DNA of 64,000 nt from Massospora cicadina (Eukaryota > Entomophthoromycota > Entomophthoromycetes > Entomophthorales > Entomophthoraceae), in the NCBI GenBank assembly GCA_022478985.1, contig JAKSZP010012314.1, forward strand, positions 1 to 64,000, read 5' to 3'. Shown here piece after piece: positions 4,724-52,519 of the stretch (positions are counted from its first letter, which is position 1; the number at the start of each line of letters is the position of its first letter). The notes under the pieces were generated by a model. It was not told the DNA's origin and ran no database searches. It saw only the letters and a program-made list of their open reading frames with translations. The position numbers and the translations under genes were made by a program.

Positions 4724-4741
4724 TAATTTTTGTGTCAACCA
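4724..4741. repeat. Target-site duplication of HAL1-like #1, left copy
   Basis: TAATTTTTGTGTCAACCA here is repeated exactly at 6657-6674. An 18-bp perfect direct repeat fixes both ends of the nested insertion. G1 sequence continues on either side: the right side matches G3 at about 42750-42790. Confidence 0.92.
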
Positions 4742-4851
4742 AACTCTCTTTCTGCTCAGCATAACTTTCCAATTAAAATTACACGAATTAATAAAAGCAA
4801 ATTTTAATCGCCCATTGTAGTTTTGCTCAAATGTCCTCAGATTCTCCACAG

Positions 4852-4872
4852 GCTGCTCCAGTGTGGGGCAGC
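4852..4872 (+). promoter_or_regulatory. Conserved 5' hairpin of HAL1-like #1
   Basis: GCTGCTCCA, loop GTG, TGGGGCAGC: a 9-bp stem with one T-G wobble and a 3-base loop, about 110 bases from the 5' end. Equivalent hairpins occur in five other family copies (9387-9403, 22181-22205, 26617-26641, 35436-35456, 50307-50327). Function unknown; an RNA element of the 5' leader is the simplest reading. Confidence 0.6.
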
Positions 4873-5039
4873 GGCAAACCCCCCCCACCGTTTTCTATCC
4901 GGCAGGAAAAAGCGCTCAGACTGGTTCACACAGTCATTCCAAACCCATGGATGATTAATTCCTCCCAAGGATATTGACGCCCACCTTGCTCATACTCAAG
5001 TGGTACCTCGCTGCCCCTGGTGCTCCCCTGGAGCAACAT

Positions 5040-6518
5040 GAACTATGGCCTAAGGGTTGAATATGGGAAACTATTCCCATATCACAACCAAGCCATTATA
5101 AAAATGGCACAGGTGGTGTGACACACGCCGGATTCATAGATTTCCACCCCTATAAGGGTTATTTCAACCTCAACTTCACCTGTGAAGCCAATGCTGCCAC
5201 TGCAGCAACTGTGCCCCTGGTATTCCAGGGCACCCCCTCCCCACAACCCAAACCCCGCTCCCAGCAGATACCACTTTGGTCGTCCAGTTTGCTGGCTTGC
5301 CCACCCACCTCCCCCCTGAAGTGCTCCACCAGGAGCTGATGGACGGTTTGGCAGCCTATGGCTCCAACCCAATCTTACAATTTGTGGTCCCAAATGGGGC
5401 CACACGACTCGCTGGGCCTTGGGCATATGCCATGGTTAGCCCTGAATTTAGTAAAATCGCTGTGTTGATGCCCCCTTGCACCGTTATTCCTTCAGCACCC
5501 AACCATCCAAACCTGGGCCCGCGTCAAGAGTGGGTGGATGATATGTCCATCATGTTTTGAGTTAGACCACTCAAAATGCAAGTGTCCCTCCTTAGCCACT
5601 TCCAATGGATTAATGACTTGTCCGCTGACCTCCAATCCGCTGCCCACCCCATACAAGTTCCAGTATGGGGCACAATACTGCCTCCCCCTCCCCCAAAACT
5701 GGAAGCTGCAGTTGCACCTGCAGCCATCTATCAGCCTCCTTCTTGCCCACATGCCACAAATGATTCCTCTAATCAAGCATAGGATTGGGTCCCAGTTTGA
5801 TCCCATGCTTCCTCAAGTGAATCAACCAAACCTCAACCATATACCGATTCCCCAATTCAATTCAACCAAAACCCATAGGAGTTATTGGCTGAAATTGATG
5901 AATCAGGTAAGCTCATTGAAGAAAGTATCTCTGCAAATCAAGCAGTTCAGTAATGAAGTTTGGGATGCCAAATACCCCCCTCAACTAAATATCCCATAGC
6001 CAAATGCCAAATCATTTTGCAGTAATCTTTATCTTGCAGTCAAAGCAGCTGCAACACCAGATTGTCACCCCCTTTGTAAAGCTGTCGCCAAATCAGTGGC
6101 GATGCTCACAGGAGGAATTCCACCTCCTGTTATCCCCAAACTCTTACTCAAAAAAGTAAAATTACAGTAAAAATGCTATACAAAAATGCTAACAATGCTA
6201 TCCAGAATGTGGCAACTATAGCATGGAACCCATAAGCTAAAATCACCTGAACCAACATTGCCACGTTCATTAAACTCCCAGATGCCCGCATTAAATCTGA
6301 AAAGCTTTAACGAATATATCAGTGCCATTTACCTATATGGCAATTTACATAAAATTCCAATTATTGGAGATATCAAACCACATGCCGCAGATGCCCCAAC
6401 GCCCTTTATGTCTGCCGTGACGTGCACTCTACTATGGGAGGAAGAAGCTGCTGCTGAAGATGAGCCCCCTGACCCCCACCTCCCCTTATGCCATGGAGGG
6501 ATAAGTAGTTTCCCTTGA
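5040..6518 (+). pseudogene. ORF1-like RNA-binding protein of HAL1-like #1, degenerate
   Basis: Plus-strand frames give, in order: an N-terminal N-Y-G-L-R-V-E-Y-G-K stretch; an RRM-like region with G-Y-F-N-L-N-F; a segment T-T-L-V-V-Q-F-A-G-L-P shared with copy #7; the zinc knuckle CPSCFELDHSKCKC (5544-5585, CX2CX4HX4C); a Pro-rich linker; the acidic motif (E-I-D-E-S-G-K, about 5890-5915); and a C-terminal block with D-A-P-T-P-F-M-S-A and D-E-P-P-D-P. LINE ORF1 proteins coat their RNA and act as chaperones, and the layout suggests the same role here. Several frameshifts and stops make this copy inactive. An overlapping minus-strand open frame at 5082-5426 is only its complement. Confidence 0.75.
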
Positions 6519-6656
6519 CCACCTGGTTGGTTGTTTTTTTTTAAAGTGTTTCACTCAATCCGCTCATTTGGGCGTTTTGTTTGAACCAATTAGTTATGTT
6601 AATTTTGAGTTTAGTTTTAGTAATGTCCATCCCCTGGTCAGCTTACCTTGAATAAA

Positions 6657-6674
6657 TAATTTTTGTGTCAACCA
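6657..6674. repeat. Target-site duplication of HAL1-like #1, right copy
   Basis: Exact copy of 4724-4741. It follows the element's GAATAAA tail directly. Confidence 0.92.
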
Positions 6675-9261: not shown

Positions 9262-9386
9262 TAAATTACCATCTTTCTTTCACTTTGATATCTATAATCA
9301 AAACCAAATTTTGATTTTTAAAAAAATACAAAATATGACTGCTCATATGAGCAAAAATCTAAAATGTTGATGATTTCGACGTCCAC

Positions 9387-9403
9387 TGTCCCAGCATGGG
9401 ACG
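9387..9403 (+). promoter_or_regulatory. Variant 5' hairpin of HAL1-like #2
   Basis: TGTCCCA, loop GCA, TGGGACG. Relative to the other copies one stem pair is swapped from C-G to T-A (GTCCCA/TGGGAC), so pairing is kept while sequence changes. Confidence 0.55.
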
Positions 9404-9639
9404 ATGGTGTGCAACTGCTGGTGTGTTTTGACCACCTCTGAAGCATGCCCAAGCTAGCTCTGCTAGCTCTCCCAACGCTACTGGGCGTTATGCCTCCCAG
9501 GACTTGGCTTGCACCTCAAAAGCTCCAAAAGCGGTACTCTGGAGCCATTTGGTGTTCCCACGGAGCAATTTGTGTTTTAACCTCCAGGTCAAATATGAAA
9601 ATCTTTTCCATACACAAGCGCAGCCATCACCAAGATGGA

Positions 9640-11032
9640 CACAGCGGTGTATAAATCAGCTGGCTTAATTTATTTTCGCCCCTTCAAGGGTATTTTGATC
9701 TCAGCTTCCATTCTGACACTAATGCAATGGCAGCATCTAAGCTGCCCTTAATTTTTAAAAATATATACATTCCTACTGTTTGCACCTGGCTCCCAGATGA
9801 GGCCACTTTGGTGGTCCAGTTCACTGGGTTGCCCTCTCACCTTTTTCCTGAACGCCTCTGCCAGGAGCTCACTAGGGGTTGGACATTAACAGCGCAGACC
9901 CCATAATGCAATTTGTGGTCCTGAATGTAGTGGATTGTTTGGCAGGACCATGCGCCTTTGTGATGATCTGCCCATTTTATCATGACACCCATCTCACAAT
10001 TACCCCTCACAGGGTGATCAGATATGCCCTGATCCCCAATTTGGGGCATGCAGCAAGAACATCTGAACCATTTGCTCCTTGTGCTTTGAGCTTGATCACA
10101 TGAAGCACAAGTGCCCAATGGCTTCCACCTCCGCTGCTTCTGCTGCTTCCCCCTCAATTTTCAGCTTAGCTTCTGCCACGCCCAATTTTTTTAAGTGGGG
10201 CTTGATTCTTCCAACCCAAATTTCAGTGAATTCTGGTGTGGTTTCCAAAGAGGCAGCCAATCAAAATTTTAGAAAATTAAAAAAGTTTTGGTCGATTTAC
10301 GCCAACCTGAGCCAATGGCTGAAACAGTTTCAACTGAGCTGCCATGGTTGACAGTTCACAGCCAATCAGGTGTGGCCAACTTGCCAACTCCAGTGGCTGG
10401 GTCAGCATTAGCTGAGTCAGATCCTTTTGAGTGTCTCAATTTGATTGACAAAAATGACCAGTCATATAACGTTAAACCAGATTTTGCACTTGAGGAGTTT
10501 TTCGTCAATCCTCCTAAATTGTGTCCCCACAGTATTTGTCCTAAGAACGGTTATCCCATTTATAATAATATAATTAAAATGGCAGTCAAAGCCGCTGCAG
10601 TTCCTGCCAACACCCTACTCCGCCAGCAACTCCATAGGGCAATGGAACCCCTGGTGAGGTATTCCTATCCCTAATTTTCCTCATGATTTTTGAGGAAGAT
10701 GAAAAAAATGAAATTTAGGTGCTCACATTTAGTGTGAGCCATGTAGCATCAACGTGGCAAAAACTATTCTTTTTAACCCTGATTATCCTGAAACCTGCTG
10801 GTGCATCAAGTCTTTCATTTGTGTGCCTGCTTTCATCACTTTTGCTAAGCATCAACTTGCTCAATATGGTGAGGCGATGGACAGCTCTGTCCTCATAAAT
10901 GAAGAACACCCACAACTATATCTCAATATGCCCCATGTCACTGATGCTCCCACCCCTAATGCTGTCTGCCATGGTCTGCCAGCTAAAGCGGGTGCCAGAC
11001 AAAAGCTTCCCCAAAGCTTCCTCACTTTCTGA
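9640..11032 (+). pseudogene. ORF1-like protein of HAL1-like #2, degenerate
   Basis: The RRM-like block (F-R-P-F-K-G-Y-F-D-L-S-F equivalent, about 9670-9710) is followed by D-P-I-M-Q-F-V-V-L-N (9897-9930) and by a complete knuckle CSLCFELDHMKHKC encoded at 10073-10114. The longest open piece is 10288-10674, ending in a conserved A-V-K-A-A-A-V-P-A-N-T-L-L helical segment. A later piece (10754-11032) includes V-T-D-A-P-T-P, the C-terminal family motif. At least three frame changes separate these blocks. RNA-binding ORF1-type role is inferred. Confidence 0.68.
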
Positions 11033-11199
11033 TATGGCTTCCTAGGCTGTTAGCTGAGGTGCTATATTAGGAATTTTTTATTTCTAATAATCCCTTTGTT
11101 TGGCCCATTTGCAAATAAAGATTCATGGCAGCCCCCCCTTTAGGTTGGGCACCACTAGTGCTAAAAAAAGAATCCAGAGGGCAAATGTCTGATAACATT

Positions 11200-12660: not shown

Positions 12661-12681
12661 ACTTAAAAGTTATTAGAAGTA

Positions 12682-13898
12682 TGCCAACCAGGGATGGACA
12701 GTACCAATTGCAAAGCAAAAAAAAATTCAGCCTAAACGGGCAATCAAAAAAACAAAATAAAACCTCCAACCAGGTAGGGAGAGGATGATCGCTAACCCAC
12801 CATGGAAAAGGGAGAGGGAGGTTCAGGGTTTCAACATTAGGCGAAGCAGCGATGGCAGAAGCAGCACAATTAAAGATGCAGATATTTGCTGAGACCAAGG
12901 GCGTTGGGGCATCAGCATTAAGGGGATTGAGGGCTGCAATGAAGCGATTATAAGACACAATATCAGCCTAAAAAGCTAAAAATATTCTTTGAGATGATGT
13001 TCAGCTTGAAGGCGGGCATCTAATAGTAGAGTGAAATTAGCAAAATTTTTCTGTGTGATTTTAGTTTTGGGTTAAAGGTTGCAGGGCTAGATATATGATG
13101 CATTGTGGTTGGCGGTATAGGCCAACTTGGTGATTTCTTCCTGAGCTTTAACTGGAAAATCAGGGGTGGAAGTTAGGCATATTTTCCCTTTTGAAGATTC
13201 ATAAACAGATTTTTCCACTGCTTTGCAGAGGAGGGGGCAATGGGGTGATTCCACCGCTGCTAAGGGAATCTGGTAGTCACTCTGGAAGGAAATTACATTG
13301 GGTTTGGGGGCATAACGTCTTAGTGGTAGAGATTGTCAAAATCATAATTTATAAATTTAGTCAAGTTATAAGCCATCGGTGGGGCTTTCAACTGATTTGT
13401 CCTCTTCATTCAGGGCAAGATACACCTGATTCATCAACTTCTTCCAATAGGGCCCAAGTATTTTGGTTAAAATTATCAGGTAAGCCTGAATAAGAGTAGA
13501 TGGTAGTTGGAAATTGGGGAGATGCGTAGGTGCAAACAGTGGTCCAAGCCTGATTCTGATTGGTGGTTTGGAATACAGTGGGTGTTGTGGCTGGAGGAAT
13601 TGAAGGGGCAGATTTCCAGCTCTGGCCCAGCAAGTTAGGGCGTTGGGTGGAAGATGACTTCAAAACACCCCTAATTGGTTGCCGCTGACAAGGGAGCAGA
13701 AATAACAACAGAAGGAACGGCTTGTTGCCAGGAATTTTTAACGTGGTCTAACCTAAAACAGAGAGACAAAGCTTTTGACCGTTGTTGACCAGTGCCCAAA
13801 TAAATTCTCTGGTGCTGCAACTATACAAGCATGTAGAATGATTTGTTGGGCGATGGCAGGGTGGTGTGGCTTGATGGTGGCAGTGGTGAGAGGGGCCA
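12682..13898 (-). pseudogene. C-terminal half of the ORF1-like protein, HAL1-like #3
   Basis: Minus-strand pieces at 13748-13898, 13406-13708 and 12641-12958. In order they contain a damaged zinc knuckle (C-L-S-V then an internal stop, frame slipped), the acidic motif N-T-W-A-L-L-E-E-V-D-E-S-G, and the C-terminal L-N-A-D-A-P-T-P-L-V-S-A block. The matching N-terminal half lies beyond the inserted Ty3-like element. The plus-strand open frame at 13191-13493 is a shadow. Confidence 0.65.
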
Positions 13899-14578
13899 TG
13901 TTGGACAATTACTAGATGATATAATGATAAGAGTGGTTGAGAGAAAGATAATTTGAATATAGGTAAAAGACTCTGGTCATTCCTGGTGGAACCCCGCAAA
14001 TTAGGGTAACACTTTTACAATAGATAGGTAAACAGATTGAGTTTGGCGGTCAGATTGCACCAAACCATCAGCCAAATTTGGGGAGTTCAGCAAAAGATCC
14101 TCCCCTGGCCTTGTCTAGTTTAGTAAAGGTAACACCGCGGAAATTGACCCCTTTTATAGGTTCAGAAGAAGTAAAACCCAAGTGAAAAAAAATTTAACAT
14201 CTTATTGTTTAGGACAAATTCATAAAAACATTACCTAATGGACTTTTTACCTGTTCCCAACCCTCAATTGGCCATTGCGCCCAAACAAGGCATGTTAGAG
14301 GGATCCAATAGGTTAATGGCTCATATTACCTAAATTGGAATTTACTTAGCTATCCAAATTTTGAGCCTCGACGTTCTATATACTATTATCAAATTATTAA
14401 GGGTTCTTTCTCTTTTACCCCCACATGGCGCCTAATAGATATCTATAAAACTAAACCTTTCTAGTATATATTTGTTTTAGTCATTCCGTATTTGTGGTGA
14501 TAAAAGCCCTTAAATATATATTGTTGGATTTGAGGCAAAAAGCACCAGAAAGCCTTTTTTCAAGCCAAAAATTTAATA
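13899..14578 (+). repeat. G2 5' LTR
   Basis: Starts TGTTGGACAATTA and aligns with the 3' LTR start TGTCTGACAATTA and on through TTGAGGCAAAAAGCACC near its end. CCCCTTTTATAGG (14149-14161) is a TATA-like box. About 680 bp. Confidence 0.85.
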
Positions 14579-14580
14579 AG

Positions 14581-14598
14581 TGGTGCTCACTACAGGGG
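14581..14598 (+). promoter_or_regulatory. G2 tRNA primer-binding site
   Basis: TGGTGCTCACTACAGGGG begins two bases after the 5' LTR. The leading TGG pairs with the CCA end of a tRNA. The identical sequence is found in Y (except one extra G context) and, with one change, in G3. Confidence 0.78.
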
Positions 14599-14693
14599 CA
14601 CCTGTGCACCACACCAAACGTTAAAAATTATGGAGGCTGTTGAGGGGGTACCCTTCTAGACCTTTTCGCTGATATTAACCCTAAGCTAGATTT

Positions 14694-15935
14694 ATGGAAC
14701 AACAGTTAGACAGTGCTTTGTCTCGCCCTAAAAGGCTTGATCAGCACTCACTACAACGATTTGTTATAAAAAACCCTCTTCGAGACAGATTCATATTTGA
14801 TGAGGTCAGTACATCCTCCTTCCTCATGTTTATGAATCTGCGATGGAGGAGAAACTGACCAACAATAAATCCAGTACATTCTTCCCTGCTTAGATCAAAC
14901 ATTTCAAAGGAAGAATGGTCCCACAATGGTCAACCTCAGCACTTGGGCAGGAGTTAAGCAAGCGCTGATTGATAAATTTGGTTCCAACAAAGTTTGCAGT
15001 GACAAAAACAGGCTTTTATGTGCCTTAGTTTGCAAGAGGGAGAATCAAGCACCTCTTTTGTTGTGCGATTTTATAATAAATCTCACCTTAGTTGCTTGCC
15101 TTAATGCTCCCTCTCGATGATGCTATTGAAGCTAGCTTGGCTGGCTTGGCATCTCATACCTCCTTTGCGAAACATCTCTCTTCCATATAGCGCACTTTCA
15201 AACCTGTACAGGATATCAAGGAGTCCTTATTAGCAGTTGAAGATATCTATGAGCTTAATCTTACACAATAATTTTTGAGCCAAGCATCTACGCCAACCAA
15301 TTTAGCATCTACTACGGCTTTTTGCCTCTGGAACCTGCTCCTGCAGAAGTTTTCATCACAAATTGCTTCTTCTCATAAATATAGTCAGATGGTAATGGCT
15401 GTATGGGGCAATGCTCCCCTTTGTATTCATTTTAAAACACTCAGTTGGTGAAGGCAGTCGTCCCCTTGCCTTGCCCATCTTCTTCTTCAGAACGGCCTTC
15501 CCAAGTGGTCCCAAAGCCGGATCTAAAGCCTAACCCCTTTCTCATGTCACAATTGCTCCCACTAACAATGGGTTAAATGACCATGTCACATAGGCTAAAA
15601 CTCCTGATTCTTAGAAGCACATAGCAATTGAACGGCCCAAAGCTGTTGAAGTTAAAGCATCCACCTCCATGGTGCTTTCCCCTCAACCTCTCATTCAACT
15701 AACTATAGTCTGAAACCATTCTCCCTGAAGCAGCACAAACCCCCTACTTTAAAGGTCAAAACTTGAGCTGTGACAAATCAACGCCTCCCCCAAAAGTTAA
15801 TAAGGTGGAGGAGCAACCCCAGGACCTATCATCCCATAAAGGAAGTCTTGAACCTACACCACCTCCTATGGGATCCCTAACTTGTATTGATAACCCTTCT
15901 GATGACGAGTCTAAAGGGGGTGATGAATTTAAATT
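14694..15935 (+). pseudogene. G2 gag remnant
   Basis: The ATG at 14694 opens M-E-Q-Q-L-D-S-A-L and runs about 55 codons to a stop. The frame then shifts several times. The open piece 14926-15120 (S-T-W-A-G-V-K-Q-A-L-I-D-K-F-G-S) is clearly homologous to G3 gag (49304-49564). The 3' part is Pro/Ser-rich and ends in acidic S-D-D-E-S-K-G-G-D-E-F, as in G1. It encodes the structural protein of the element's particle. HAL1-like #4 interrupts it at the very end. No intact CCHC is visible. Confidence 0.72.
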
Positions 15936-15939
15936 TATT

Positions 15940-16690
15940 TAAGTTTACCTACCAGGGGACAGACATTACTGAAACAGAACCACCAAACAAGCAAACCAAA
16001 ACATCAACCATATGCTCTAAATGAGCGGCGAGACACATAAAAAAAGTCAAAATAACCTACCAAGTGGAGCAGCGGTGAACCGCTTATCCCACCATGGCGG
16101 AGGGGGAGGGGGATTAGGCGGATTATTAATTTCATCTTCACCATCGAAGAGGCGGATCAATGCTGAGAGCAAGGGGTCGGGTCATCCACAGGATGAGGGT
16201 CAAGGTGAAATAGATAATTGTTGATATCGTCATTGATAATTTGGGCCTGGAGCATAGCCTTCAGGTGTTTGGCAACATGGTGTTCAGCTTGTATGCATGC
16301 GTCAGGAAGCTGGATGAATTTTGTAATATTGGCTCTGGTGATATGTGTGGTGGTGGGGAAAAAGATGCCAGTTCAGCAACATTCTTGACAGCGGTGGTGG
16401 CAGTTTCATTTAAGCAACTGATCTCCTCTTTTGCAATGTCAGAAATTTGGAGGAAGTTGGGTGACATGTATCCCTTCCTTAAATTCAGAAACAGAGAGTG
16501 CCATGGCATCATGGAGATGGTGACTTTCAGGTAAGGCCACCACACCCTCAGCAAGCTGATGGTCACTTAGGAAATGAAGAGGTGATGAAGATGTTGGTCA
16601 ATATGTCTTAGGAGCCCCAGATGAAGTGAAGGTAATGATCAATTGAATCCTGAAAGAGTGAATTGGGCTGAAATCCCTCAATAAATTTAT
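15940..16690 (-). mobile_element. HAL1-like #4: 5'-truncated copy
   Basis: Minus-strand 3' half of the ORF1-only family. The 3' end reads GTCTGTCCCCTGGTAGG followed by an A/T-rich tail that merges into the gag sequence. The protein piece 16261-16566 aligns with HAL1-like #5 (shared L-N/K-E-T-A-T-T/S-A-V/I-K and H-A-Y-K-L-N-T-M-L-P-N). The copy stops near 16690 and lacks the hairpin, RRM-like block and knuckle, the usual signature of incomplete target-primed reverse transcription. The plus-strand frame at 16241-16534 is its complement. Confidence 0.72.
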
Positions 16691-16859
16691 CTTCAGCAAG
16701 CAATAAGGAGTCTCAAGATTATTGACACTGCCAGTGGCGCTGACCAGCACATTGCCACACTTCTCCGATCTATCAGTGCGTTCATACTCTGCAGACTATC
16801 CAGGAGAAATACCATGAAACTGACAAATGACTTTGCTTACTTTTCATCTAAAAGAGGTC

Positions 16860-17496
16860 CTCGCTCTTCCCCCTTCTTGGGTGGTACTTTAACTAAAGTG
16901 GAGGTCGTCGTTAATGGTGTGCAGTTTAAAGCTATCCTTGACACTGGGTCCCCGGTGAACGTTGTGTCAACTAAGCTCATTAAAAATTAAACTGGCCCCT
17001 GACCTTAACTGAACTCAATAGTTTGGAACTGCGGGTCCAGATAACACCTGCGCCATTGGGGCGTACTCTTACCTGCCCATTCGTTTTTAAAACTTCTCTT
17101 GTCAACTCACGCAGTGGCTTTGAAAAAACCTACTATTTACTCATTGGAACGCAATTTATGCTCAAATATGAAGGCTTTCTCAAACTGAAGCAGGGCTATC
17201 TCTCCCTGCTTAACTATGAGGTTCCTCTGATTCTATCTAATGATGAGCTCAATAAAAAAGGATTATGTTTGTACAGTTTAATATCTTTCCTCCAGTTTAT
17301 CCCTGCAATACACCACGGCAGGCAGGCATACAAAAAATTGCCCTCATCAGTGGACACCCTGGAAGGTATCTCTTTCTATGCTTCTGAAGGGGTGGTCATT
17401 AAGGCTGGGGAGCAAAGGGTAGTTGACATAAAATTGCCATGCAAGTCCCACACAACTGCCTACTGCACCTCATTAGCATTGATGGAAGTCCTTTAG
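16860..17496 (+). pseudogene. G2 protease and protease-RT linker
   Basis: The aspartic protease site I-L-D-T-G-S-P-V-N-V-V is intact (DTG at 16940-16948), preceded by the strand V-E-V-V-V-N-G-V-Q-F-K-A. A stop at about 16990 interrupts it. The open frame 17023-17496 (157 residues) continues the linker and includes L-E-G-I-S-F-Y-A-S-E-G-V-V-I-K-A-G, which is matched in G3 at 42782-42860. Protease matures Gag-Pol in Ty3-type particles. Best-preserved protease of the G elements. Confidence 0.8.
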
Positions 17497-17839
17497 AGCC
17501 CAGAGTTATGCCAGGCATGTTAGACCACGCCTATCATCGGCCTATTAACTTTCCCTAGGGATTCTCACCAAGAAGCATATGGTGATAAAAAGTATCAGGA
17601 GATCAGAAGAGGCCTACTGATACCCATTGAGGACATCAAGAAATTCCACTGTACTGGGTCTATGACTGATATGGGTTTACCCATTGACCAATAATTATGT
17701 ATTTTGCCTTCTATCTATATCTCTGACAAACTAACCCTAGCTGAGCTGGATTAATTTACACTTCTCGAGGCCTACAGCGACATTTGCTCCAGTTCTGACA
17801 ATGATTATGGGAACATAAAGGGATGGACGCATACTGCTG

Positions 17840-18679
17840 ACCTTGGGGATGCTAAACCCATTCGTCCAAAACCTACCACAAATCAAAAGTTGAGGAGCTA
17901 TAAGTGTGGATGGAGCTCAAACAGCTTCTGGATGCTGGATTGCTGGTGCCGTCACAAAGCCCTTGGTCATCCCCACTCTTATTAATAAAGAAGAATCGAG
18001 GTCATCAGGTAGTGATGGACTACCACAAATTAAACAACTTTACCGAGAGGGATATTTACCCTATCCTTCGCATTGATGATGCTCTGGCCCAACTCTCTGG
18101 GCCCAAGTTCTTTTTATCCATGGACCTGAATAGCGGTTATTGGCAAATGGACCTTTCTCCACAAGACCTGGAGAAATTTGCTCTTATTTGCAGTGAAGGT
18201 AACTTCCAACCTACACAACTACCACAAAAGTTGTGTAACGCACCCACCATTTTCCAATGGGCGATGGATCATATTCTCCAGGATCTCAAACTGAGTTATG
18301 TGATTGTTTATCTTGATGACAACACAGTTTCTCCAAGACTTTCAATGAACACCTCGCACATCTAAAGAAGGTGTTTCACCGCTTGCAGGCATCTAATATT
18401 AAACTAAAGCGCTCCAAATGTACCTTTTGCAAGAGGAAGCTGAAATTCCTTGGACACGCTATCTCACAAGATGAGATACAACAACATCAAGATAAAGTCA
18501 AAGCAATATCCAAGATGCCTGCACCCAAAACCCATAGTGCCATCCAGGAATTCTTGGGAATGATGGGAGACTATAATGAATTAATCCCAAAATTCTCCCA
18601 GCTCAGCGAGCCCCTTGTCCGCCTCCTGGCTAAGAACACCCTCTTCCATTGGGGTGCTAAAACAACTGGCCGCATTTAG
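17840..18679 (+). pseudogene. G2 reverse transcriptase, one frameshift
   Basis: The frame 17904-18365 holds RT fingers and palm: W-S-S-P-L-L-L-I-K-K, V-M-D-Y-H-K-L-N, S-M-D-L-N-S-G-Y-W-Q (first catalytic Asp) and the active-site YLDD at 18309-18320. Immediately after YLDD the frame shifts. The thumb continues in the frame of 18371-18679 (F-L-G-H-A-I-S, then F-L-G-M-M-G-D-Y-N). Catalytic residues are intact, so inactivation rests on the shift and on damage elsewhere. Confidence 0.85.
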
Positions 18680-19120
18680 TACTCTGAAGGAGCTCTTCAA
18701 AAAAGGCTAATACTTCACCACCCTGACTACAGCAAACCCTTCATGTTGTTCAAAGATGCTTCTGACTATGCTGTTGGAGCTATATTGGCTCAATTGATAG
18801 AGCATGGGGGCAATCGCCCCATGTTTTCTTTTAGCAAAATGCTTTAAAAAGCTGAGCGTAACTACAGCATCACGGAAAAGGAGTGCTTGGATCTCCTACT
18901 CGCTGCCAAACACTACCGCCCATTCCTATATGAAACTCACTTTAAAGTGATCACAGACCACGCCTCTCCAAAGTGATTGCAGAATATTAAGAATTTCACG
19001 AGGCAGTTGGCTCGCTGGGCTCTGAAGCTCCAGCATTATGATATGACTATTGAGCATTGGGCAAATACGTGCTGTATTAATGTAGATGGGTTAAAATAGC
19101 TGCCCATTCTTCACTTAACA
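18680..19120 (+). pseudogene. G2 RNase H remnant
   Basis: In-frame blocks [26 protein letters not shown] and V-I-T-D-H-A-S give the Asp, Glu and Asp positions of Ty3-type RNase H. Single stops fall at about 18845 and 18976. It directly follows the RT thumb, as in the family. Confidence 0.78.
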
Positions 19121-19199
19121 ATAGTGAAGCTGAGAGGCTACATGTCATTTAATGATCCAGATACATGGGCTGAGGAAGACAAACCAGTACAAAATTTTC

Positions 19200-20290: not shown

Positions 20291-20326
20291 GCTGGTTTTT
20301 ACACCCTTATTCTCCCCCTTACCACA

Positions 20327-37245: not shown

Positions 37246-37343
37246 GGTCTCAACTTTTCTTTCTCGTTGCAAACACTTTTGCAACCCATTCAATTAAGAC
37301 TAAATCTAGTTTGATAATCTCATAGAGGGGATTAGTCTGCGCC

Positions 37344-38743: not shown

Positions 38744-38752
38744 GGTGCAATG
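38741..38752 (+). promoter_or_regulatory. ORF1-ORF2 junction of LINE A
   Basis: TAAGGTGCAATG: ORF1 stop, six-base spacer, ORF2 start. LINE B has the identical 12-mer (46699-46710, minus strand), and LINE C has TGAGGTGCACCG at about 55286. Suggests ORF2 translation by termination-reinitiation. Confidence 0.65.
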
Positions 38753-41700
38753 GGGGAAACCTTCACTCTAGGGATGCTGAATATCACCGGACTCAAGGCC
38801 TCCCCATCCTGGGCTAGGAAACTGAGTTTTTTACAATACAATTTACCCGTGGATATCCTGGCCATCCAGGAAACCCAAAGTCCACGAGGTTCTGAGGAAG
38901 CTTGGAAAACAATGCTCCTACCATCCCTATCCTTTTGGTCAAAGCACTGTGGGGTGCTAATTTGGAAAAACAATTTTTTCAAATTTACATCTTCAGAAAC
39001 ATTCCTAAATGGCCAAGTGCTCGTTGTCACCTTCTCATGGGCCGATGTTGCACACACAATCATCAACATTTACGCCCCAAACGGTGCACAAGAGCGTCAG
39101 GAATTTTTCGTCAGTCAAATCCCTCCCGCTACCCCCAATTCTTTCCTAATTGGTGACATGAACTGTTGGCTAACCTCACCAATGGACCGGTGGCCACCCT
39201 CACCCCACGCCCCACAGGGTCATGTAGAACTACGCATTTTAAAAGCCACCCTTGGGTTAATGGATGCGCTGCCATGACATGCCCCACTGCTCGAAAACAT
39301 GACGCGTCCCCACATCCACAACGGCCAATCAAGGTCCATGACCCACATCAACCTTATTCTAGCACTGGCGAAATTCCAACCCCACATCTCCCACTTCAAA
39401 ACAATGAAAATAGAATTCTCTGACCATTGACTGGTCTTGATAACATACCACTTACCCGTCACAGTTGCAAAGGCCCCACATTGGTGCAAAATCTGCCCCC
39501 CAGAGCTCGTGTCATCAGGATTTTCCACGTGGGTGGAAGAGGCAACTTTGGCAAAATCATTTGTTGCACCGTTTTGCGCGGACCCCATTTCCACATGGGT
39601 AACTTTCAAAGAAGACACCATCTGCCACTATTGCCATCTCTCATCCAGATGCATATAAGCCACATCGGCAATTATATCGCGCGTGCTGGTGGAATTGGCC
39701 CACTTGGAGTCCAACATTCCAGCCTCAGGATATAGCCCTGCATGGGGCCAGAAGTGGGCAGAGGCAGCCGCCCACCTCAACGCACTTGAAAGGCAACACA
39801 AACATTGGGTTTGTGTCCAATACAGAGCCACACGCATCACTAAAGGTGACAAGTGCACTGCATACTTCTTCAAAAAAATTTTGCACCATGCCAGAGCGTG
39901 GCCTGCACACAAGTGCGAAGATCAGATAATTCTATTGTGGACACACTGGCTGAAGTGGCAATCGAAACGCAAAGATATTACTCTGAGTTATACCGAGCTG
40001 AACCAATTCAGCCAGCCAAAATGGCGGAATTTCTCGACTGAGCTCATATCTGCACCATTTTTCAATACCCAGAAATAATGAATTTAATTACTCTGAACGA
40101 ATTATGGACTACCATTTGCGGTGCGCCAAACCGAAAATGCCCAGGCCCAGATGACATTTCCATATGAGTTCTACAAAAAATATTTTAAATATATATTCCC
40201 ATTGCTGCAAGCCTCACTCAACCAAATCCTGTTGGAAACGCGCCTCCTACCAGGAGGACATGAGGCCTTTACAGTCACACTCTTCAAGAAAGGGGATAGG
40301 CTAGACTTAGCCAACTGGCGCCCCATTTCTCTAACAAACACAGACACCAAAATTTTAACAAAAATCATGGCTAACCGTTTAGGGACTGTAGCATCTGCCA
40401 CCATCTCCCCAGAACAATTCGGTTTCATCCCCAGAAGGTCAATTTGGGATAACGTGCACTCTGTGGTTAATGTGTGTCAGTCCACAGCCTCTGGGGCACT
40501 TGTTTTCTTGGACCAACAAAAGGCCTATGATAGAGTAAATTGGGAATACCTTAGGGCCTGCCTCCAACAATTCCGCTTACCTCCCCGCTTCATTAACTGG
40601 GTGATGCTGCTCACGGAATCTGCAACAATGGCAGTGCGCGGCCCAGGTTTCCTAACGGAAGTAGTCCGTCCTCAAAGGGGCCTGTGACAAGGGGACCCCC
40701 TGAGCCCACTCTTATACAACTTCAGCCTTGACCCACTACTGCGAAATGTGAATGCCCAACTCACTGGGGTCCATGTGCCAGGCCAAACCCCAGTCAAGAG
40801 GATGGCGTTTGCAGATGATTGCGTGGTGGGGGTGTCTAATATCAAAGATGCATGCGCGCTTGAAGCCCTCATCCAGGAATATTCCTCGGTAAGCAACGCG
40901 GCACTGAACGCCTCCAAAACCGAAATCATTCTCCTTGGTCAGATTCAGAACTGCTGGGCCCCAACAAGTAGTTCCCAACCCGGCCCATCTGCTCGCCCAC
41001 GTCCACGACTTACTAACTCAAAACACACCGCTCCACTGGTGCTCCCCTTTGTGCCACGACCTACCATAGGACCGTTACGCCATCTGGGCGTGTGGTTGGA
41101 GGCAGGTGGATACGCGTCAGCAGTAATGGAGTGCCATATACTGGACAACGTGACGAAGCGAATCGCCTCTCTCAGAGCCCACCCTACTACCCTCACTGGC
41201 AGGGTTGTTCTTGCCAACTCTATGCTCCTATCCAAAGTCTGGTTCGGAGCCCACGCCATCCCCTTCTCCCCAAGCTTCTTCAAATCCCTGTATGCTTTGC
41301 TACAAGGATGGCTTTGGTCAGGCCGCCCTCCACCAGTATGGCTAGAGGTCATGTTTGGCCCTCATCATCATGGTGGCATGGGCCTACTTGACTTCAAAGC
41401 CCATGCCGCCAAGATCCTGGGCACCTGGATTGCGGATGTCACTGCTCCTACACTCCCATCCCAACACTGGTCCCGCGCGGCCCACTCCAACTTCTCCTGA
41501 GCCTTGGGCCTCAACAATCCATCAAACCCCCACTCCCCGATGAAATACCTCGCATCATACATATCAGCCACAGGTCCTCACGGGACCAAAACCCACTACA
41601 AACGAATCCTACTCTCCATGCGAAGCGCAGAGTGGAGAATTCGTAATAGTGGACATACAACCTGAAGAGGCCGCCCCTCTCCTCAGTTCACACAAGAGGT

Positions 41701-42376
41701 ACAGGGGCTACCCATCCATGATGGCGTGATCCCCATTCGACCCCAAGTCCTATCCAGGGTGGACTACCTGGACATGATGGACATCCCTTATTCCACTGAG
41801 ACCCAAAAGACTATCTGGAAATACGCACACCATCCTCTGTTGCAGCCTCAAGTCCGCTCCAATGTGTGGCGCTGCCTGAGGCGGGTGTATCATACAGCTG
41901 AGCGCTCTAATGCTTTACACTCATCCTGTGTCGTGTGTGGCCAGTATGGAACTCTGTTTCACCGCCTGGAGAAGTGCCCCACCTCTAAAGTAATATGGCG
42001 CGAAGTCCAACGTCTGCTAGGCCAGGATCAAACACATCCCTTCAGTCTGTCAAGAGATATGTTTGCTTCATCAATGGCCTCCCCCTCCCCACCCTCCCTC
42101 CGTGCTCTGGTGGTTGCAATCGCCATGTGGACTATCCACACGATTGTCTTGGATGCCATCGCTGGATCCATCCCCACCCTCCCTGAAGCTGTCCACAGAT
42201 TCCGGTCTCATTTGGTGGATCACTTTCAAGCGTGGATGTTTGGATATCTCCCACCGCGTCGCCAACAGCTGGTCTCCTCCTGGTTCCCAGTCTGGTTCAT
42301 CAAATCAGACCCCTTCCTCCACACGTGCTCAATAGTGGCTACGTCCCCTACACACGTTCCCTCCCCCTTCCCATAA
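38750..42376 (+). pseudogene. LINE A ORF2: endonuclease-reverse transcriptase
   Basis: Endonuclease (38750-39440): L-N-I-T-G-L, I-Q-E-T, I-N-I-Y-A-P-N, I-G-D-M-N and, after a shift, S-D-H, the hallmarks of APE-type nucleases that nick the target. RT (40121-41500): F-G-F-I-P-R-R-S-I-W-D-N, F-L-D-Q-Q-K-A-Y-D-R-V-N-W, the active site F-A-D-D (40808-40819), thumb to S-K-V-W-F-G. One TGA (40685-40687) replaces Arg before Q-G-D-P. The C-terminal knuckle CVVCGQYGTLFHRLEKC (41927-41977) is C-x2-C-x7-H-x4-C. Gly-Asp-Met-Asn and FADD are intact, so decay is modest. L1-clade affinity is inferred from the RT motifs. Confidence 0.88.
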
Positions 42377-42513
42377 GTGGCGTTCCCGCTGGCAACAAGA
42401 GATAGCATCGCTTCTCTGGGGTGCCTCCCCTGGTACTAAGTTTTGTCTCGTCTGAGACATTTTCGGAAGTGTTCATCCTATGGTCGGCCTTCCCCGCAAT
42501 AAATCAAATTAAA

Positions 42514-42926: not shown

Positions 42927-43072
42927 CTTGTATTGTTTAAATTTTAATTTATTGCGGGGAAGACTGACCAGGGGATGGACACTTCTGAAAGTAAACATGA
43001 AAGAAAACGAAACTCAGTAACAGGGAAGGCACCCCAGAGAAGCGATGCTATCTCCTGTTGCCAGCGGGAACG

Positions 43073-46000
43073 CCTCTATGGGGAGGAGGGGGGAACGTTT
43101 AAAGGGGTCATAACCTCAATTGAACACGTGTGGAGGAAGGGGTCCGAGTTGATGAACCAGACTGGGAACCAGGAGGAGACCAGCTGATGGCGACGCGGTG
43201 GGAGGTACCCAAACATCCACGCTTGAAAGTGGTCCACCAAATGGGACTGAAATCTGTGGACAGCTTCTGGGAGGGGGTGGAGCCTGCGATGGCATCCAAG
43301 ACAATTGTATGGATAGTCCACATGGCAATTGCGACCACCAGAGCATGGAGGGAGGGTGGAAGAGGGGGTACCATGTGTATAGCAAACAAATCTCTTGATA
43401 GACTGAAGGGATGTGTTTGATCCTGGCCAAGCAGACGTTGAACTTCACGCCATATCGCTTTAGAGGTAGGGCACTTCTCTTAGGCGGTGAAACAGCGTTC
43501 CATACTGGCCACACACGACGCAGGATGAGTGTAAAGCGTTAGAGCGCTCAGCCATATGGTACACCCACCTCAGTAAGCGCCACACATAGGAACGGATATG
43601 AGGCTGCTACAGAGGGTGGTGTGCTATTTCCAAATAATCTTCTGGGTCTCAAGGGAATAAGGGATGTCCATCATGTCCAGGTAGTCCACCCTGGATAGGA
43701 CATGGGGCCGTGTGGGGATCAAGCCATCTTGAATGAGTAGCCCCTGTACCTTCTGTGTGAACTGAGGAGAGGGGTGGCCTCTCTGGGCTGTGTGTCCACT
43801 AATACGGATTCTCCACTCAGCGCTCCACATGGAGAGGAGGATTTGTTTGTAGTGGGTTTTAGTACTGTGAGGACCTGTGGCCGATGGGTGGGAAGCCAGA
43901 TACCTCATCAAGGAGTGAGGGTTCTATGGATTGGTAAGGCCCAGGGCGCGGGAGAAATTGGAGTAGGATGCGCGGGGCCAGTGTTGGGAGGGGAGCGTAG
44001 GGGCAGTGATGGCCGCAATCCAGGTGCCCAGGATCTTGGCAGCATGGGCTTTAAAGTCAAGCAGGCCCAAACCACCATGTCAATGAGGGCCAAACATGAC
44101 CTCAAGCCGCACTGGCGATGGGCGGCCTGACCAGAGCCACCCTTGTAGAAGGGCATACATAGATTTGAAAAACTCAGGGAGAAGGCGATGGCGTGGCACC
44201 AAACCAGACTTTGGAGAGGAGCATAGAGTTGGCTAAAACAACCCTGCCAACAAGGGAAGTAGGGTGGGCTCTGAGGGAGGCGATGCGCTTTGTCACATTG
44301 TCTAGAATACGACTTTCCATTACTGTTGAGGCATACCCGCCTGCCTCCACCCACATGCCCAGATGGCGGACAGGCCCTATGGTAGGGCATGGTACGAAGG
44401 GGAGCACAAGTGGGGCGGTTTGGGGTGAGTAGGGAGGGTGAGCACATGTGCGAGCAGATGGGCCAGGCTGGGCACTTTTCGTTGGGGCCCAGCAGGTTTG
44501 ATACCAACCAAGGAGGATGATTTCAGTTTTGGAAGCGTTCAGTGCAGCATTACTTACCCGGGAATACTCATGGATGAGAGTTTTAAGCGCGCGTGCATCT
44601 TGATTATTAGACACCCTGACCACACAATCATCTGCAAATGCCATCATGTTGACTGGGGCTTGTCCTGGTGCATGGACCCCAGTGAGGTGGGCATTCACGT
44701 TTCGAAGTAGTGGGTCAAGGCTGAAGTTATATAAGAGTGGGATAAGGGGGTCCCTTTGGCGTAGGCCCCTTTGAGGGTGGACTACTTCTGTGAGGAAGCC
44801 TGGGCCACGCACTGCCATTGTTGCAGATTCTGTAAGCATCATCACCCAGCTGATGAAGCGAGGGGGTAAGTGGAAATGGTGGAGGCAGGCCCTGAGGTAT
44901 TCCCAGTTTAATCTATCATATGCCTTCTGTTGTTCCAAGAATACTAGTGCCCCAGAGGCTGTGGACTGGCATGCATTACCCACATAGTGCACATTGTCCC
45001 AAATTGACCTTCTGGGTATGAAACCAAATTGTTTTGGGGAGATGGTGGCAGAGGCTATAATCCCTAGATGGTTAGCCAAGATTTTAGTTAAAATTTTTGT
45101 ATCCGTGTTAGTTAGAGAAGATGGGGCGCCAGTTGGCTAATTCTAGTTTATTTCCTTTCTGAAGATCGTGATGGTGAAGGCCTCTTGCCCTCCTGGTAGA
45201 AGGCGCGTAACCAGAAGGCTCTGGTTAAGGGAGAAAAGCAGCAGTGGGGATATATATATATGAAGTACTTCTTATAGAACTCATACAGAATGCCATCTGG
45301 GCCTGGGCATTTCCAATTTGGTGCACCGCGGATACTGGACTGGAGTTCATTTGGAGTAATTAAATTCATTAACTCCAGGTATCAGGAAACAGTGCGGATG
45401 TGAGTGCTATCGAAAAACTTTGCCATTTCAGCTGGCTGAATTGGATTGGATTGGTACAACTTGGAGTAATACTTTTGTATTTCAATTGCCACTTTGGCTG
45501 GTATATCCGTGATGGAATCATCCGACCTCCACACCTGTGTACAGGCCATGCTCTGGCGCAGTGTGAAGAATTATTTAAAAAAATAAGCAGAGCACGTGAC
45601 ACCCTCTGTAATGTGTTTGGCCCTTTACTGAACACAAACCTGATATCTGTGTTGCCTTTCAAGTGCAATGAGGTGGGTGGCTGCTTCTGCCCACTTCCGG
45701 CCCCAAGCAGAACTGTAGCCCATGGCTGGGATGTTGGACTCCAGGTGTGCCAACTCTTCCAGAGCGTGTGAGATGACAGCCAATGTAGCTCATGAGCGTT
45801 GGGAGGAGAGGTGGCGAGTGTGGCGGATGGTATCCACTTTGAAGGCTGACCATGTGGAAATTGGGTCCACGCAAAATGGTGTAATAAAACTCTTTTGCCG
45901 AAGTCACTGATTCCACCCAAGTGGAAAATCCTGGCAACGCGAGTTTGGGTGGGCGGAGTTTGCACCAATGCAGAGCCCTAGCCACTGTGATGGGTAAGTG

Positions 46001-46701
46001 GTAGGTTATCAAGACCAGATGGTGGTCGGAGAAATCAATTTTTGATGTGTGGAAGTGGGAAATATGAGATCAAAATTTCGCCGGCATGAGGATAAGGTTG
46101 ATGTGGGACATGGACCTTAATTGGCCATCGTGGATGTGGGGGCGCATCATATTTTCAAGCAGCGGAGCTTGCTGCAGCAGCGCGTCTAGCAACCCAAGGG
46201 TAGCCTTTAGAACGTGAAGTTCTACGTGACCCTGGGGGAGTGGGATGAGGAAGGCCAACAGTCCGTGGATGTGTTTAACCAACAGTTCATGTCGCCAACT
46301 ACAAAAGGGTCAGGGGGTAACAGAAGGGATTTGACTGATGAGAAAAATTCCTGACACTCTCATGCACAGGTTGGGGCATAAATGTTGACGATAGCGTGCA
46401 CCACGTCAGCCCACAAAAATGTGATAATGAGGACTCAGTCATTGAGGAAGGATTCAGATGATAAAAATTTAGGGAAATTGTTTTTCTGAACAAGCACCCC
46501 ACAGTGCTCAGACAAGAAGGATAGGGAAGGGAGGAGCATATTTTCCAAGCATCCTCAGAACCTCATGGACAGTGGGACTCCTGGATGGCCAGGATGTTCA
46601 TGGGTAAATTTTTTTGTAAAAAAAATCAGTTTCCTAGCATGGGACGGCGAGGCCTTGAGTCTGGCGATATTCAACGTCCCTAAAGTGAAGGCTTCTCCCA
46701 T
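43073..46701 (-). pseudogene. LINE B ORF2: endonuclease-reverse transcriptase
   Basis: Starts at the ATG complementary to 46699-46701. The endonuclease part (about 46701-45950) is shifted in places but keeps G-D-M-N context and S-D-H-H-L-V-L. The RT frame 44174-45079 is 301 codons long and contains F-G-F-I-P-R-R-S-I-W-D-N, L-E-Q-Q-K-A-Y-D-R-L-N-W, R-Q-R-D-P (usual Q-G-D-P with Gly changed to Arg) and F-A-D-D (44627-44638). The C-terminal region follows in 43076-43911. Plus-strand frames such as 43774-44130 are complements. Confidence 0.85.
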
Positions 46702-46707
46702 TGCACC

Positions 46708-48110
46708 TTAGGTAGGGGGTGGGCACCTGGGCCCACCATCCTCCTCTGGATCCCCATGGGCCTTCACGGTGGCATGGGTGTTTACAGCAATGCTATTGGA
46801 AGATTTGTTAATCTTAGCAGACAGGTTCGCGTTGGCTTTTGCCTTTGCTTTTTGTTTCCCCACTGTCAAATGAATTTTTGTGATGCGGATGAGTTTAGTG
46901 CACCAACGTTCAGGTCAAAAAAACTTTTCAGGTAGGTTGGAGACCAAATTAGTTTCAATTGGGGCTTGGTTGCAAAGATCAGGTGAGATTGAGTCGCCCA
47001 TCAGATCCTCAGATTGGGTGGCCCAATTGCCTTGGGCCTACCAATCTGATTGGTTGAGGGATTCCCGAGTTGCTTCCGCCATGAAGCTTACAATTTTCCT
47101 GGCGTTGGGAGTGTGGGATAGTGGAGGCGACCTTGGCTGCTTCCTTGGCCATGGCCCTGAGGCCTGTTTGGCCTTCTTTCGCTCTTGAGGGGAGACAGGC
47201 TTTACTAGTAAGTAGCCGCCTTGTGCTCCCCATGGGAAGGCCTCTTTGGTACTGGTGGTTGGTTCATAGTGAGCCTCCCTGTTGGCCATGGCCGCTGAGG
47301 GGTGCTCTTGGAATGTGATGCCCTCCTTGGTGGGTCATGCGTGTGCCTTATGACCAAATACATCACAGTAGGTGCAGATGGGGGGTGCGCTGTCTACAGT
47401 TACCCGGAAAGGGTGGGTGGTATGCCCTTCAATATTAATATAAGTTGAGTGCAGGATCTGGGTTAGGTTCTTCGCGATCTCCCCGGTTGGAGTCAGAACT
47501 GCAATGGCTTTGCTGGTGCACAGGTGCGGCATCAGTGTAAAGTGTTGCATCTCGAAAGATTGTATTTCTCATATATGGTTAGACCAGCTTTCAGGTGCTG
47601 TTCCAAAATGGCACGCTTGACTGTAGTGGGCAAAAAATCAAACATGAGGAAAATTTGATTGGATTTTGTCCATCTGGTGCGCTTGGTTTTGATGACCCAC
47701 TGCCCTTCAGGGAGGTCAATCACAACATGCATCAAGCAGCTTTGTCTACTGCCTCCTTTTTTTGAAACTGAGATCCAGCCAACCGCATGACATGAAGCGA
47801 GGTGTGACATACACTGCAGTTGAGAAATAAGTGTGCACATCCCCCAAAAATTTTCCCACAGAGCTGTTTGGTGGACATCTAGGAACACCCAAACTCCGTA
47901 TTCCACCAACAAGAGTGGTTGAGAGTGCGGCGTGTTGATGTACTGGTTACTTCGCGCCTGCCAAGCGAGGATTTCTGGGGAAATAGTAACCGCCAGTTTT
48001 TTATTTTTATCTAATCCGCTGGTTTCTCTGGGGCGTTTTTAAATGTTGGAGGTCACGGGCCTATCACCTGTGCCTCTTACCTTACTTTCCCAACTGCTCC
48101 CTGATATGGG
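46708..48110 (-). pseudogene. LINE B ORF1 (RNA-binding protein), mostly readable
   Basis: 47532-47912 gives the N-terminal domain (V-E-Y-G-V-W-V-F-L-D-V-H, then V-G-W-I-S-V-S-K-K), with an open frame upstream to about 48000 (L-A-V-T-I-S-P-E-I-L-A-W-Q). 47335-47550 gives F-T-L-M-P-H-L-C-T-S-K-A-I and the intact knuckle CTYCDVFGHKAHAC (CX2CX4HX4C, about 47340-47385). 47009-47289 gives S-P-Q-E-R-K-K-A-K-Q. The C-terminus is basic and ends at the TAA complementary to 46708-46710. The knuckle here identifies the damaged one in LINE A. Confidence 0.78.
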
Positions 48111-48222
48111 CGCAGACTAATCTCCTCTGTGAGATTATCAAACTATATTCAGACTTGAATTGAAGAAGTTTCAAAAGTGATTGCAACGAGAGAGAAAAGT
48201 TTTGGGTTTTGTATTGTTTAAA

Positions 48223-49890: not shown

Positions 49891-49892
49891 AG

Positions 49893-49910
49893 TCCCTGTA
49901 GTGAGCACCA
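49893..49910 (-). promoter_or_regulatory. G3 tRNA primer-binding site
   Basis: Minus strand: TGGTGCTCACTACAGGGA, two bases inside the LTR. 17 of 18 match G2 and Y. Confidence 0.75.
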
Positions 49911-50306
49911 CTTGTCATAATCCTGGCACTATGCTTCTCGCTGGTGTTTAGTTGCAGGATCCCAACAATATAATAGATGCAGTAGTGCTAAAACTCTCAG
50001 CAGCTGTTTAATAATTTGGGGTTTAACATAGATTACAAGTAAGTCTAAATAGCAATTAAAATGAGTATGATAAATGCTACTTTATTAAGAAAGTGCCTCC
50101 CAGTATTTATAATAATTGGAGGCTAAAAACCAGATAAGCAAGAGAATTCATGATAGGAAGAGGGTAGCTCAGTTTTGGTTAAATAAAAAAACTGATTAGA
50201 AACTCTCTTTCTGCTTGACGTAACTTCCCAAGAAAACCTTATGGAATAAAAGCAAATCTTGATTGCCTGCCATAGTTTCACTATGATGTTCTCAGATTCT
50301 CCGCCA

Positions 50307-50327
50307 GCTGCTCCAGTGTGGGGCAGC
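50307..50327 (+). promoter_or_regulatory. 5' hairpin of HAL1-like #7
   Basis: GCTGCTCCA, loop GTG, TGGGGCAGC. Confidence 0.6.
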
Positions 50328-50489
50328 AGCAAAACTTCCCACACCATTTCCATCTGGCAGGAAAATGCGCTCAGACTGGCTCGCCCAGTCATAACAAACC
50401 CCTGAGATGATTTGTTCCTCCCAAGAATCTCAATGCCCACCTCGCTCATACCCAAGAGGTGCCTTGTGTCCCCAGTTCTCCCTCAGAGA

Positions 50490-51755
50490 ACATGTATTTT
50501 GGCCTTAGGGTCAATTATGGGAAACTTTTCCTTTACGCCGACCAAGACATTATCAATTGGCTCAGGCAGTGATGATTCCCGCCAGTTTTATTGATTTCTG
50601 CCCCTATAAGGGGTATTTTGATCTCAGATTCACCTGTGAAGCTGACGCCACCACTGCAGCAACTGTGCCCCTGGTTTTCCAGGGTACCACTCTCCCCACA
50701 ATTCAGACCCAGATGTTAGTGGATACCACTTTGGTGGTTCAGTTCGCTGGTTTGCCCATCCACCTCCTACCTGCGGTGCTCCACCAGGAGCTGATGGACG
50801 GTTTAGCAGCCTATGGTTCCAACCCCATCTTGCAATTTGTGGTTCTAAATGGGGCCACACGCCTTCCTGGGCCTCGGGCATATGCCAGGATCAGCCCTGA
50901 ATTTGGTAAAATTTGTCTTGTAAATTCCCCCTTGCGCCATAATTCCTTCTGCCCCTGACTATCCATTCTTGGCCTGCGTCTAGGGCGGGTGGACGATCTT
51001 TCCATCCTGTTTCTGAGTTGGACCACTCAAAATGTAAGTGCCCTTCCTTAGCTGCTTCTGACAGTTCTGATTTTTTGTCTTCCAGATTCCAATCCACCAC
51101 CCACCCGCACCAGTTTTGGTATGGGGTACAATCCTACATTCCCCTCCCCCAAAGCCTGATGCTACAGCCGTGCCTACAGCCACAAATCAGCCTCCTCCTC
51201 TCCCCAGTGCCTCAAATGCTCCCTCCAATCAAGCACCAGCTTTGACCCCTGTTTGCTCTCATGAATTCTCCAACAAACCATCCAAACCTTAGGCATATGC
51301 CGTTCCCCAATTCAAATTAGACAAAATCCCCTGGGATCTATTGTCTAGAATTGATGAGTCCAGAAATATTAATGAAGACTCCACTATCCAACGTGAGTAG
51401 TTTGTGTATGCTGACCATGATGCTAAGCTACCCCTCATTTATTTGCCCCCAGCAAAACGCCAAAATTTTCCATGGCGACCACCAGCTGGCTGATGAAGCA
51501 ACGACTAAGCAAGATTGTTATACTTTCCGCAAAGTTGTCGCCAAATCAGTGTCAATGCTCGCAGTAGAAATCCCTCCTCCCATTATCCCCTCCACCAAAA
51601 ATATGCTCCAAAAGAATATGTTGATCAAATCTCACAAAGCTGCCAATGACGCCATTCAGCACATGGCAGTGAAAGTGCAGAATCCCAAAGCTAAAATTAC
51701 CCGCACCAATATCGCCATGTTTGTAAAGCTAACCAATGCACGCATGAATGCTTAA
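50490..51755 (+). pseudogene. ORF1-like protein of HAL1-like #7
   Basis: Probable start ATG at 50490 (M-Y-F-G-L-R-V-N-Y-G-K-L-F), broken by TGA TGA at about 50568. The clean frame 50557-50958 holds F-I-D-F-C-P-Y-K-G-Y-F-D-L-R-F (RRM-like), L-V-V-Q-F-A-G-L-P-I-H-L-L and L-Q-F-V-V-L-N-G-A-T-R. The knuckle (about 51003-51045) needs a one-base shift (P-S-C-F, E-L-D-H-S-K-C-K-C). Then P-W-D-L-L-S-R-I-D-E-S and the frame 51351-51755 with F-R-K-V-V-A-K-S-V-S-M-L and a Lys-rich helical tail. With copy #5 it allows a consensus of the family. Confidence 0.75.
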
Positions 51756-52519
51756 ACAGCTTTGATAAATTATATTGTCTCTCTTATGGTCACCTGATTT
51801 CTTCCTGCGACCCTGCTCATCAAAAACTCGCTCTGTATCTCACTAACGCCCCAACGTCCTTGCTCTCTGCTTTAGCCTGTGCCCTGCTCTGGGGCAAAGA
51901 TGATGCCAAGGATGAGCCCCCTGATCCCCCATTCCACCATGATAGAATAAGCGGTTCCCACTGTCCCACCTGGTTGGTTGCGTTTTCATTTTGTGTGTAG
52001 TCCGCTCATTTTGGGTGGTTCGTTCATTTTGTTTGGTGAGAATTATTTTGATTGCTCTTTAAAATTTGATAATGTTGTCCCATGGTCAGCTTACCTCAGT
52101 TAAATAAAAAACCTATTAGAACTCTTAAAAGTCTTTTCACCCCAACACAGGCTTAATTTTAGAGGATTGGTCAGCACTTGGTATGACAAATTCCTGCAGT
52201 AGTGACTTAATGTACTTTATCTAATCATTCGTCATGAAGTATATTTCATTTTGGCAAATTATAGTTTTTCCAGTTTTTGATTGACAGGCAAAGTATTTTC
52301 ATCCTTTGGAACCTCCTTCAGGTCTATAAATAGGGGGTTTTCTGAGGAGGTAGCACTAAATTTAAGTTAGTGCGTAGCAAAAATACAAATCAGTTAGCCT
52401 ATTCCACTGAGGGTTAGAGGTGAAATCATGGAATTTATATGAACTACTCCGCTAAAGTCAGACTAGTAATTACTAATATCACCTTATTTATTTGACACCA
52501 GGACATTCTTCTCTACTTG

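Follow-up and report, generated by a model that had tools for sequence, protein, structure and literature searches.

Among non-long terminal repeat (non-LTR) retrotransposons, an ORF1-only life style, i.e., with only the first open reading frame (ORF), is known above all from mammals and fruit flies. HAL1 uses the ORF2 protein (ORF2p) of a long interspersed element (LINE) in trans, mammalian ORF1 proteins (ORF1p) are of the coiled-coil type, and short interspersed elements (SINEs) are short and non-coding. HAL1 (half-L1) is described as a non-autonomous L1 derivative of mammals that encodes only ORF1p (PMC5753468), and HeT-A of the Drosophila telomeres as a non-LTR element with gag but without pol, for which TART or TAHRE are suggested as enzyme donors (PMC5537684). 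Stem-loops at the 3′ end are described as the recognition signal of stringent-type LINEs, and some SINEs as having such a stem-loop in common with their partner LINE (PMC5135761). In a stretch of 64,000 nucleotides from the cicada-infecting fungus Massospora cicadina (contig JAKSZP010012314.1, positions 1 to 64,000; the whole stretch is called the 64-kb window below), self-comparison and alignment revealed one family of 1.9-kb units with seven related copies (c1 to c7, Table 1). These units probably represent a long-lived, non-autonomous ORF1-only family of L1-like non-LTR retrotransposons that is mobilised in trans by the ORF2p of a LINE.

A full copy consists of a short 5′ untranslated region (UTR), one ORF of about 575 codons and a 3′ UTR of about 200 nt, and six of the seven copies carry a tail of about 40 nt that is common with the resident LINEs A and B and is followed by an (A)ATAAA end. 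Pieces of the LINE A ORF2 matched none of the seven copies in a tblastn search of the window (E ≤ 1e-3); only LINEs A, B and C were matched. An ORF2 of its own for endonuclease (EN) and reverse transcriptase (RT), as in L1-like elements, was thus not found, and the family is therefore non-autonomous. The alignment of c1, c7, c5, c4, c6 and c3 passes through the same junction between ORF and 3′ UTR, and synonymous sites are almost saturated between the subfamilies; together, this indicates an old ORF1-only state that is common to the subfamilies and predates them.

For the comparison of the termini, blocks were anchored by hand on the alignment with the LINE ends in view, and weight matrices were trained on c1, c5, c6 and c4 (3′ end) and on c1, c7 and c5 (5′ end). 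After the training copies, the 3′ matrix ranked LINE B (27.1), c7 (20.7), LINE A (17.2) and c3 (16.2) next; no other site exceeded 12.8, and the reversed-sequence control reached 13.7. The 5′ matrix gave 17.5 for LINE A and 14.3 for LINE B, the highest values elsewhere being 14.0 in the window and 13.3 in the control; the LINE-like 5′ leader is clear in c1, c7 and c5. Judged from these scores, the similarity to the LINE exceeds chance, strongly at the 3′ end and moderately at the 5′ end. The 3′ tail can be folded into a possible hairpin, the outer stem of which is GUAA:UUAC in the family and GAAG:CUUC in the LINEs, i.e., with compensatory changes. Across eight sequences, 85.7% of the cells pair, and the covariation of 0.302 compares with 0.170 ± 0.040 for shuffles (2 of 500) and 0.03–0.21 when the structure is slid; c1 and LINE B fold alike.

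The ORF could be traced in all copies by frameshift-tolerant alignment, with c4 holding only its end, at 3–17 frameshifts and 0–6 stops per copy and with alignment scores of 463–1466 vs. 33–53 for the controls. The ratio of nonsynonymous to synonymous divergence (dN/dS) was 0.18–0.53 in 15 of the 21 copy pairs, while dS was not computable for the other six. Furthermore, third codon positions were the most variable in 42 of 42 directed pairs, with P < 0.05 in 39. As this test was run on a plain alignment of nucleotides, with the codon positions taken from a single copy, the signal of selection is not solely a product of the alignment method. The ORF was thus under purifying selection.

The encoded protein comprises an RRM-like domain, perhaps a second one, a CCHC knuckle (CX2CX4HX4C) and about 300 amino acids without a match; by eye, its C-terminus is best read as ...DPPSPSAM with a stop soon after, as in P0028. 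This intact relative of 587 amino acids was found by protein search with 36% identity over 93%. Six M. cicadina gene products also match, P0029 by protein search and P0030–P0034 by profile search, where P0030 represents 11 sequences; in both searches, scoring was confined to the 7993 candidates with the most words in common. An ORF1p with RRM and CCHC knuckle is one of several ORF1 types among L1-like non-LTR retrotransposons, and the family protein is of this type, its RRM being predicted from one domain of a weak model.

Compared with the ORF1p of the resident LINE, the family protein is a distant homologue, colinear through the knuckle (hhalign E 2e-7, 147 columns), with shuffled controls far below this score and an identity of only about 24% in the alignable core. 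On the DNA of LINE A, the family profile scored 46.4 (other strand 29.1). Outside the short ends, the window self-comparison (E 1e-10, pieces of at least 120 bases listed) revealed no DNA match between family and LINE. Internal deletions of the resident LINE are ruled out as the source of the units by this missing match and the low ORF1 identity.

For nine elements, the scores of target site duplications (TSDs) were compared with those of 1000 random pairs, for which the 99th percentile was 8 and the maximum 34. The scores were 18 for c1 and c5, 16 for LINE B, 14 for LINE A, 13 for c7, 11 for c6, 9 for c4 and c2, and 7 for c3, so that six of the seven copies exceed the random 99th percentile, with c3 as the exception. 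Four copies have TSDs of 16–18 nt like those of LINEs A and B (17 and 19 nt), and c4 and c2 have TSDs of 9 nt. The TSDs and the 5′-truncated c4 fit target-primed reverse transcription as in L1-like elements. An earlier note on this DNA, made from the sequence alone, had placed seven copies at about the coordinates of Table 1 and had reported perfect 18-bp duplications for c1 and c5 and an RRM-like plus CX2CX4HX4C protein without EN or RT; all of this was borne out, the RRM by a predicted-structure check. Its wider proposal of a HAL1-like, ORF1-only family is likewise supported within the window, as the LINE ends score above the controls with both matrices, the units are not deletions of the resident LINE and no ORF2 match was found.

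Table 1. Copies of the ORF1-only family, resident LINEs and associated features in the 64-kb window.
Feature	Position	Strand	Remarks
c1, full length	4742..6656	+	perfect 18-bp TSD; ORF from ATG 4831
c2, most divergent, near full length	9262..11176	+	3′ end not LINE-like; 9-bp TSD
c3, split by nested insertions	12676..22312; halves 12676-13891 and ~21660-22312	-	TSD not above control
c4, 5′-truncated 3′ fragment inside c3 span	15940..16690	-	9-bp TSD
c5, full length, split by LTR element	26500..34553	+	perfect 18-bp TSD
c6, near full length	35329..37225	+	17-bp TSD, 2 mismatches; LINE A TSD overlaps
c7, near full length	50202..52100	+	16-bp TSD, 1 mismatch, ends 7 nt before element start
LTR element splitting c5	about 26837-32947		repeats 26837-27361 / 32419-32943, 92% identical
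LINE A, full length, decayed	37246..42506	+	ORF1 with CCHC, ORF2 with RT (RVT_1); 17-bp TSD, 1 mismatch
LINE B, full length, decayed	42930..48203	-	81% identical to LINE A; 19-bp TSD, 1 mismatch
LINE C, third, divergent, interrupted	53793..64000	+	ORF1 ~54050-54914, EN-like 55291-55801, RT from 63822; runs off window
c1 3′-terminal hairpin (representative)	6620..6646	+	GUAA...UUAC outer stem
LINE A 3′-terminal hairpin	42465..42493	+	GGAAG...CUUCC outer stem
LINE B 3′-terminal hairpin	42959..42985	-	GAAG...CUUC outer stem

At the DNA level, the copies form the groups c1/c7, c5/c4 and c6/c3. In the protein tree, from which c4 was left out, c2 has the longest branch and is grouped with c1/c7 (support 0.947), and P0029–P0032 are placed with c6/c3. 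Beside c2, repeats of 85% identity are located at 1210–1949 and 8518–9260, of which the second stops where c2 starts; the likeness of the first to an empty site of c2 is a visual impression only, and BLAST of the joined flanks halts at the junction. The 3′ end of c2 (11140–11176, + strand) may form a GCAC...GTGC hairpin and is A-rich at its terminus. The c5 tail (34520–34553) contains two copies of TCGAATAAAA, which may be likened to the short 3′ tandem repeats present in some LINEs.

Due to the overlap of its TSD with that of c6 (37200–37260), LINE A probably inserted beside c6 at a later time. Its ORF2 has an EN-like part by eye, and LINE A is proposed as the partner type. The RT of LINE B (44174–45136, minus strand) matches human LINE-1 ORF2p (E 8.5e-17) and is 87% identical to one M. 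cicadina protein over a quarter of its length and 53% identical to another over about half; together with the six gene products above, these matches point to M. cicadina or a close relative as the source of the DNA. LINE C, which is absent from the earlier note, is interrupted by an element with a repeat at either border (56493–57916 / 62393–63822; 85% identity). Its start at 53793 is only suggested; for this possible start, AGCTTTTCTTTTGATTACTGTCACTTTT, the 5′ matrix of the family gives 11.7, which is less than the highest control score. LTR-type elements were recognized around the copies by eye from repeats and ORFs, and the one within c5 is Ty3-like, again by eye only. The share of Ty3 elements in the genome of M. 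cicadina is given as 56.8% (PMC11105155).

Several observations weigh against an ORF1-only family served by the resident LINE type. The claim that all copies keep the LINE-type 3′ end holds for six of the seven; c2 has a different end (...GCACCACTAGTGCTAAAAAAAGAATCC), with its tail perhaps swapped and another LINE as donor. Likewise, the claimed resemblance of the 5′ end holds for LINE A and is marginal for LINE B, whose score hardly differs from that of the highest-scoring unrelated site; the 16 best sites of the matrix include no 5′ start of c6, c3 or c2. For the hairpin, two of five covariation measures are ordinary (both-side changes in 87 and further pair types in 200 of 500 shuffles), the eight sequences scored for covariation also served to derive the structure, the stem changes may reflect, for each pair, one event between LINE and family, and the z-scores of single hairpins range from −2.41 to +1.04 (six sequences). 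The AF2 models are of low overall quality, with mean pLDDT values of 40.6 and 42.2. The family profile scores only 36.3 on LINE B (other strand 34.9), and LINE C alone gives no match (23.3). Finally, LINEs A and B are both decayed in the window.

Some of these points would suit mobilisation by another LINE, in which case the ends in common with LINEs A and B would be inherited remnants and not a recognition signal in use. Such a donor is conceivable, as c2 with its different 3′ end still has a 9-bp TSD and LINE C exists with its 3′ end beyond the window. It is nevertheless considered unlikely, since the tail is the one DNA stretch clearly kept between the families, with compensatory stem changes, and the TSDs of four copies are as long as those of LINEs A and B.

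Less probable still is an origin of the units from an autonomous LINE family outside the window that has this type of ORF1 and of which they would be internal deletions or the ORF1 part; the ORF1-only state would then be recent, and selection would have acted in the autonomous parent. The 1857-bp contig of P0028 does not extend far enough to reveal whether there is an ORF2 downstream, and P0029–P0034 are known as gene models only, which leaves room for such a parent. Against it, the alignment runs across one and the same ORF/3′ UTR junction in c1, c5, c6 and c7 as well as in c3 (split) and c4 (truncated), none of these six is matched by the LINE ORF2 pieces, and the near-saturated synonymous sites make the ORF1-only state older than the subfamilies. 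That the units are an unrelated element, with ends and ORF1 similar by chance or convergence, is highly improbable: although the ends are short (26 and 36 matrix positions) and the 5′ score of LINE B hardly exceeds unrelated sites, the four best non-training 3′ matches on both window strands are all LINE or family 3′ ends, and the ORF1 homology is colinear through the knuckle at E 2e-7, with shuffles far below.

For the ORF1-only family mobilised in trans, the shared ends and the TSDs suggest that ORF2p of a LINE probably supplies the enzyme. It would recognise the common 3′ hairpin and copy the family RNA by target-primed reverse transcription, and the common 5′ leader could serve as promoter or start signal. 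The family ORF1p would coat its own RNA in cis, and the ORF may have been retained without ORF2 because of this action in cis. The family may descend from an old LINE, related to A and B, that would have lost ORF2 before the present subfamilies split, because the ORF/3′ UTR junction aligns in the six LINE-tailed copies. More tentatively, a deeply diverged ORF1-only lineage could persist beside autonomous LINEs as a stable two-component system, with ORF1p as the cis packaging protein that each RNA supplies and ORF2p as a shared public good; if so, c2, as a member of the c1/c7 group with another 3′ end, would show that the lineage can swap its tail and hence its enzyme donor.

An ORF1 that is kept in some LINE parasites and in no SINEs bears on how far LINE proteins prefer their own RNA. 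This preference becomes testable with an ORF1 that stayed under selection long after the loss of ORF2, in a fungus distant from both mammals and flies. The family separates what a LINE RNA must bring (ORF1p and the 3′ hairpin) from what is borrowable (ORF2p). Furthermore, the giant genomes of this order of fungi contain repeats listed as 'Unknown' (PMC11105155), of which the family may be a part.

Like HAL1, the family encodes ORF1p and no ORF2p in its seven copies. Unlike HAL1, it has a fungal host and is not derived from mammalian L1, its ORF1 being homologous to that of the local LINE; that the state arose independently of HAL1 rests on this host and homology. It also differs in the RRM and CCHC type of its ORF1p, of which only the core is alignable to the resident LINE at the low identity given above, and in the possible 3′ hairpin in common with its LINE. 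With HeT-A it has in common that it is a non-LTR element without its own copying enzyme, but HeT-A forms head-to-tail arrays at chromosome ends, whereas the family copies are interspersed in both orientations and most have TSDs. The possible 3′ stem-loop in common with a partner LINE recalls SINEs, from which the family is distinguished by its length of 1.9 kb and a selected ORF of about 575 codons. The family thus works like HAL1 or HeT-A and belongs to neither.

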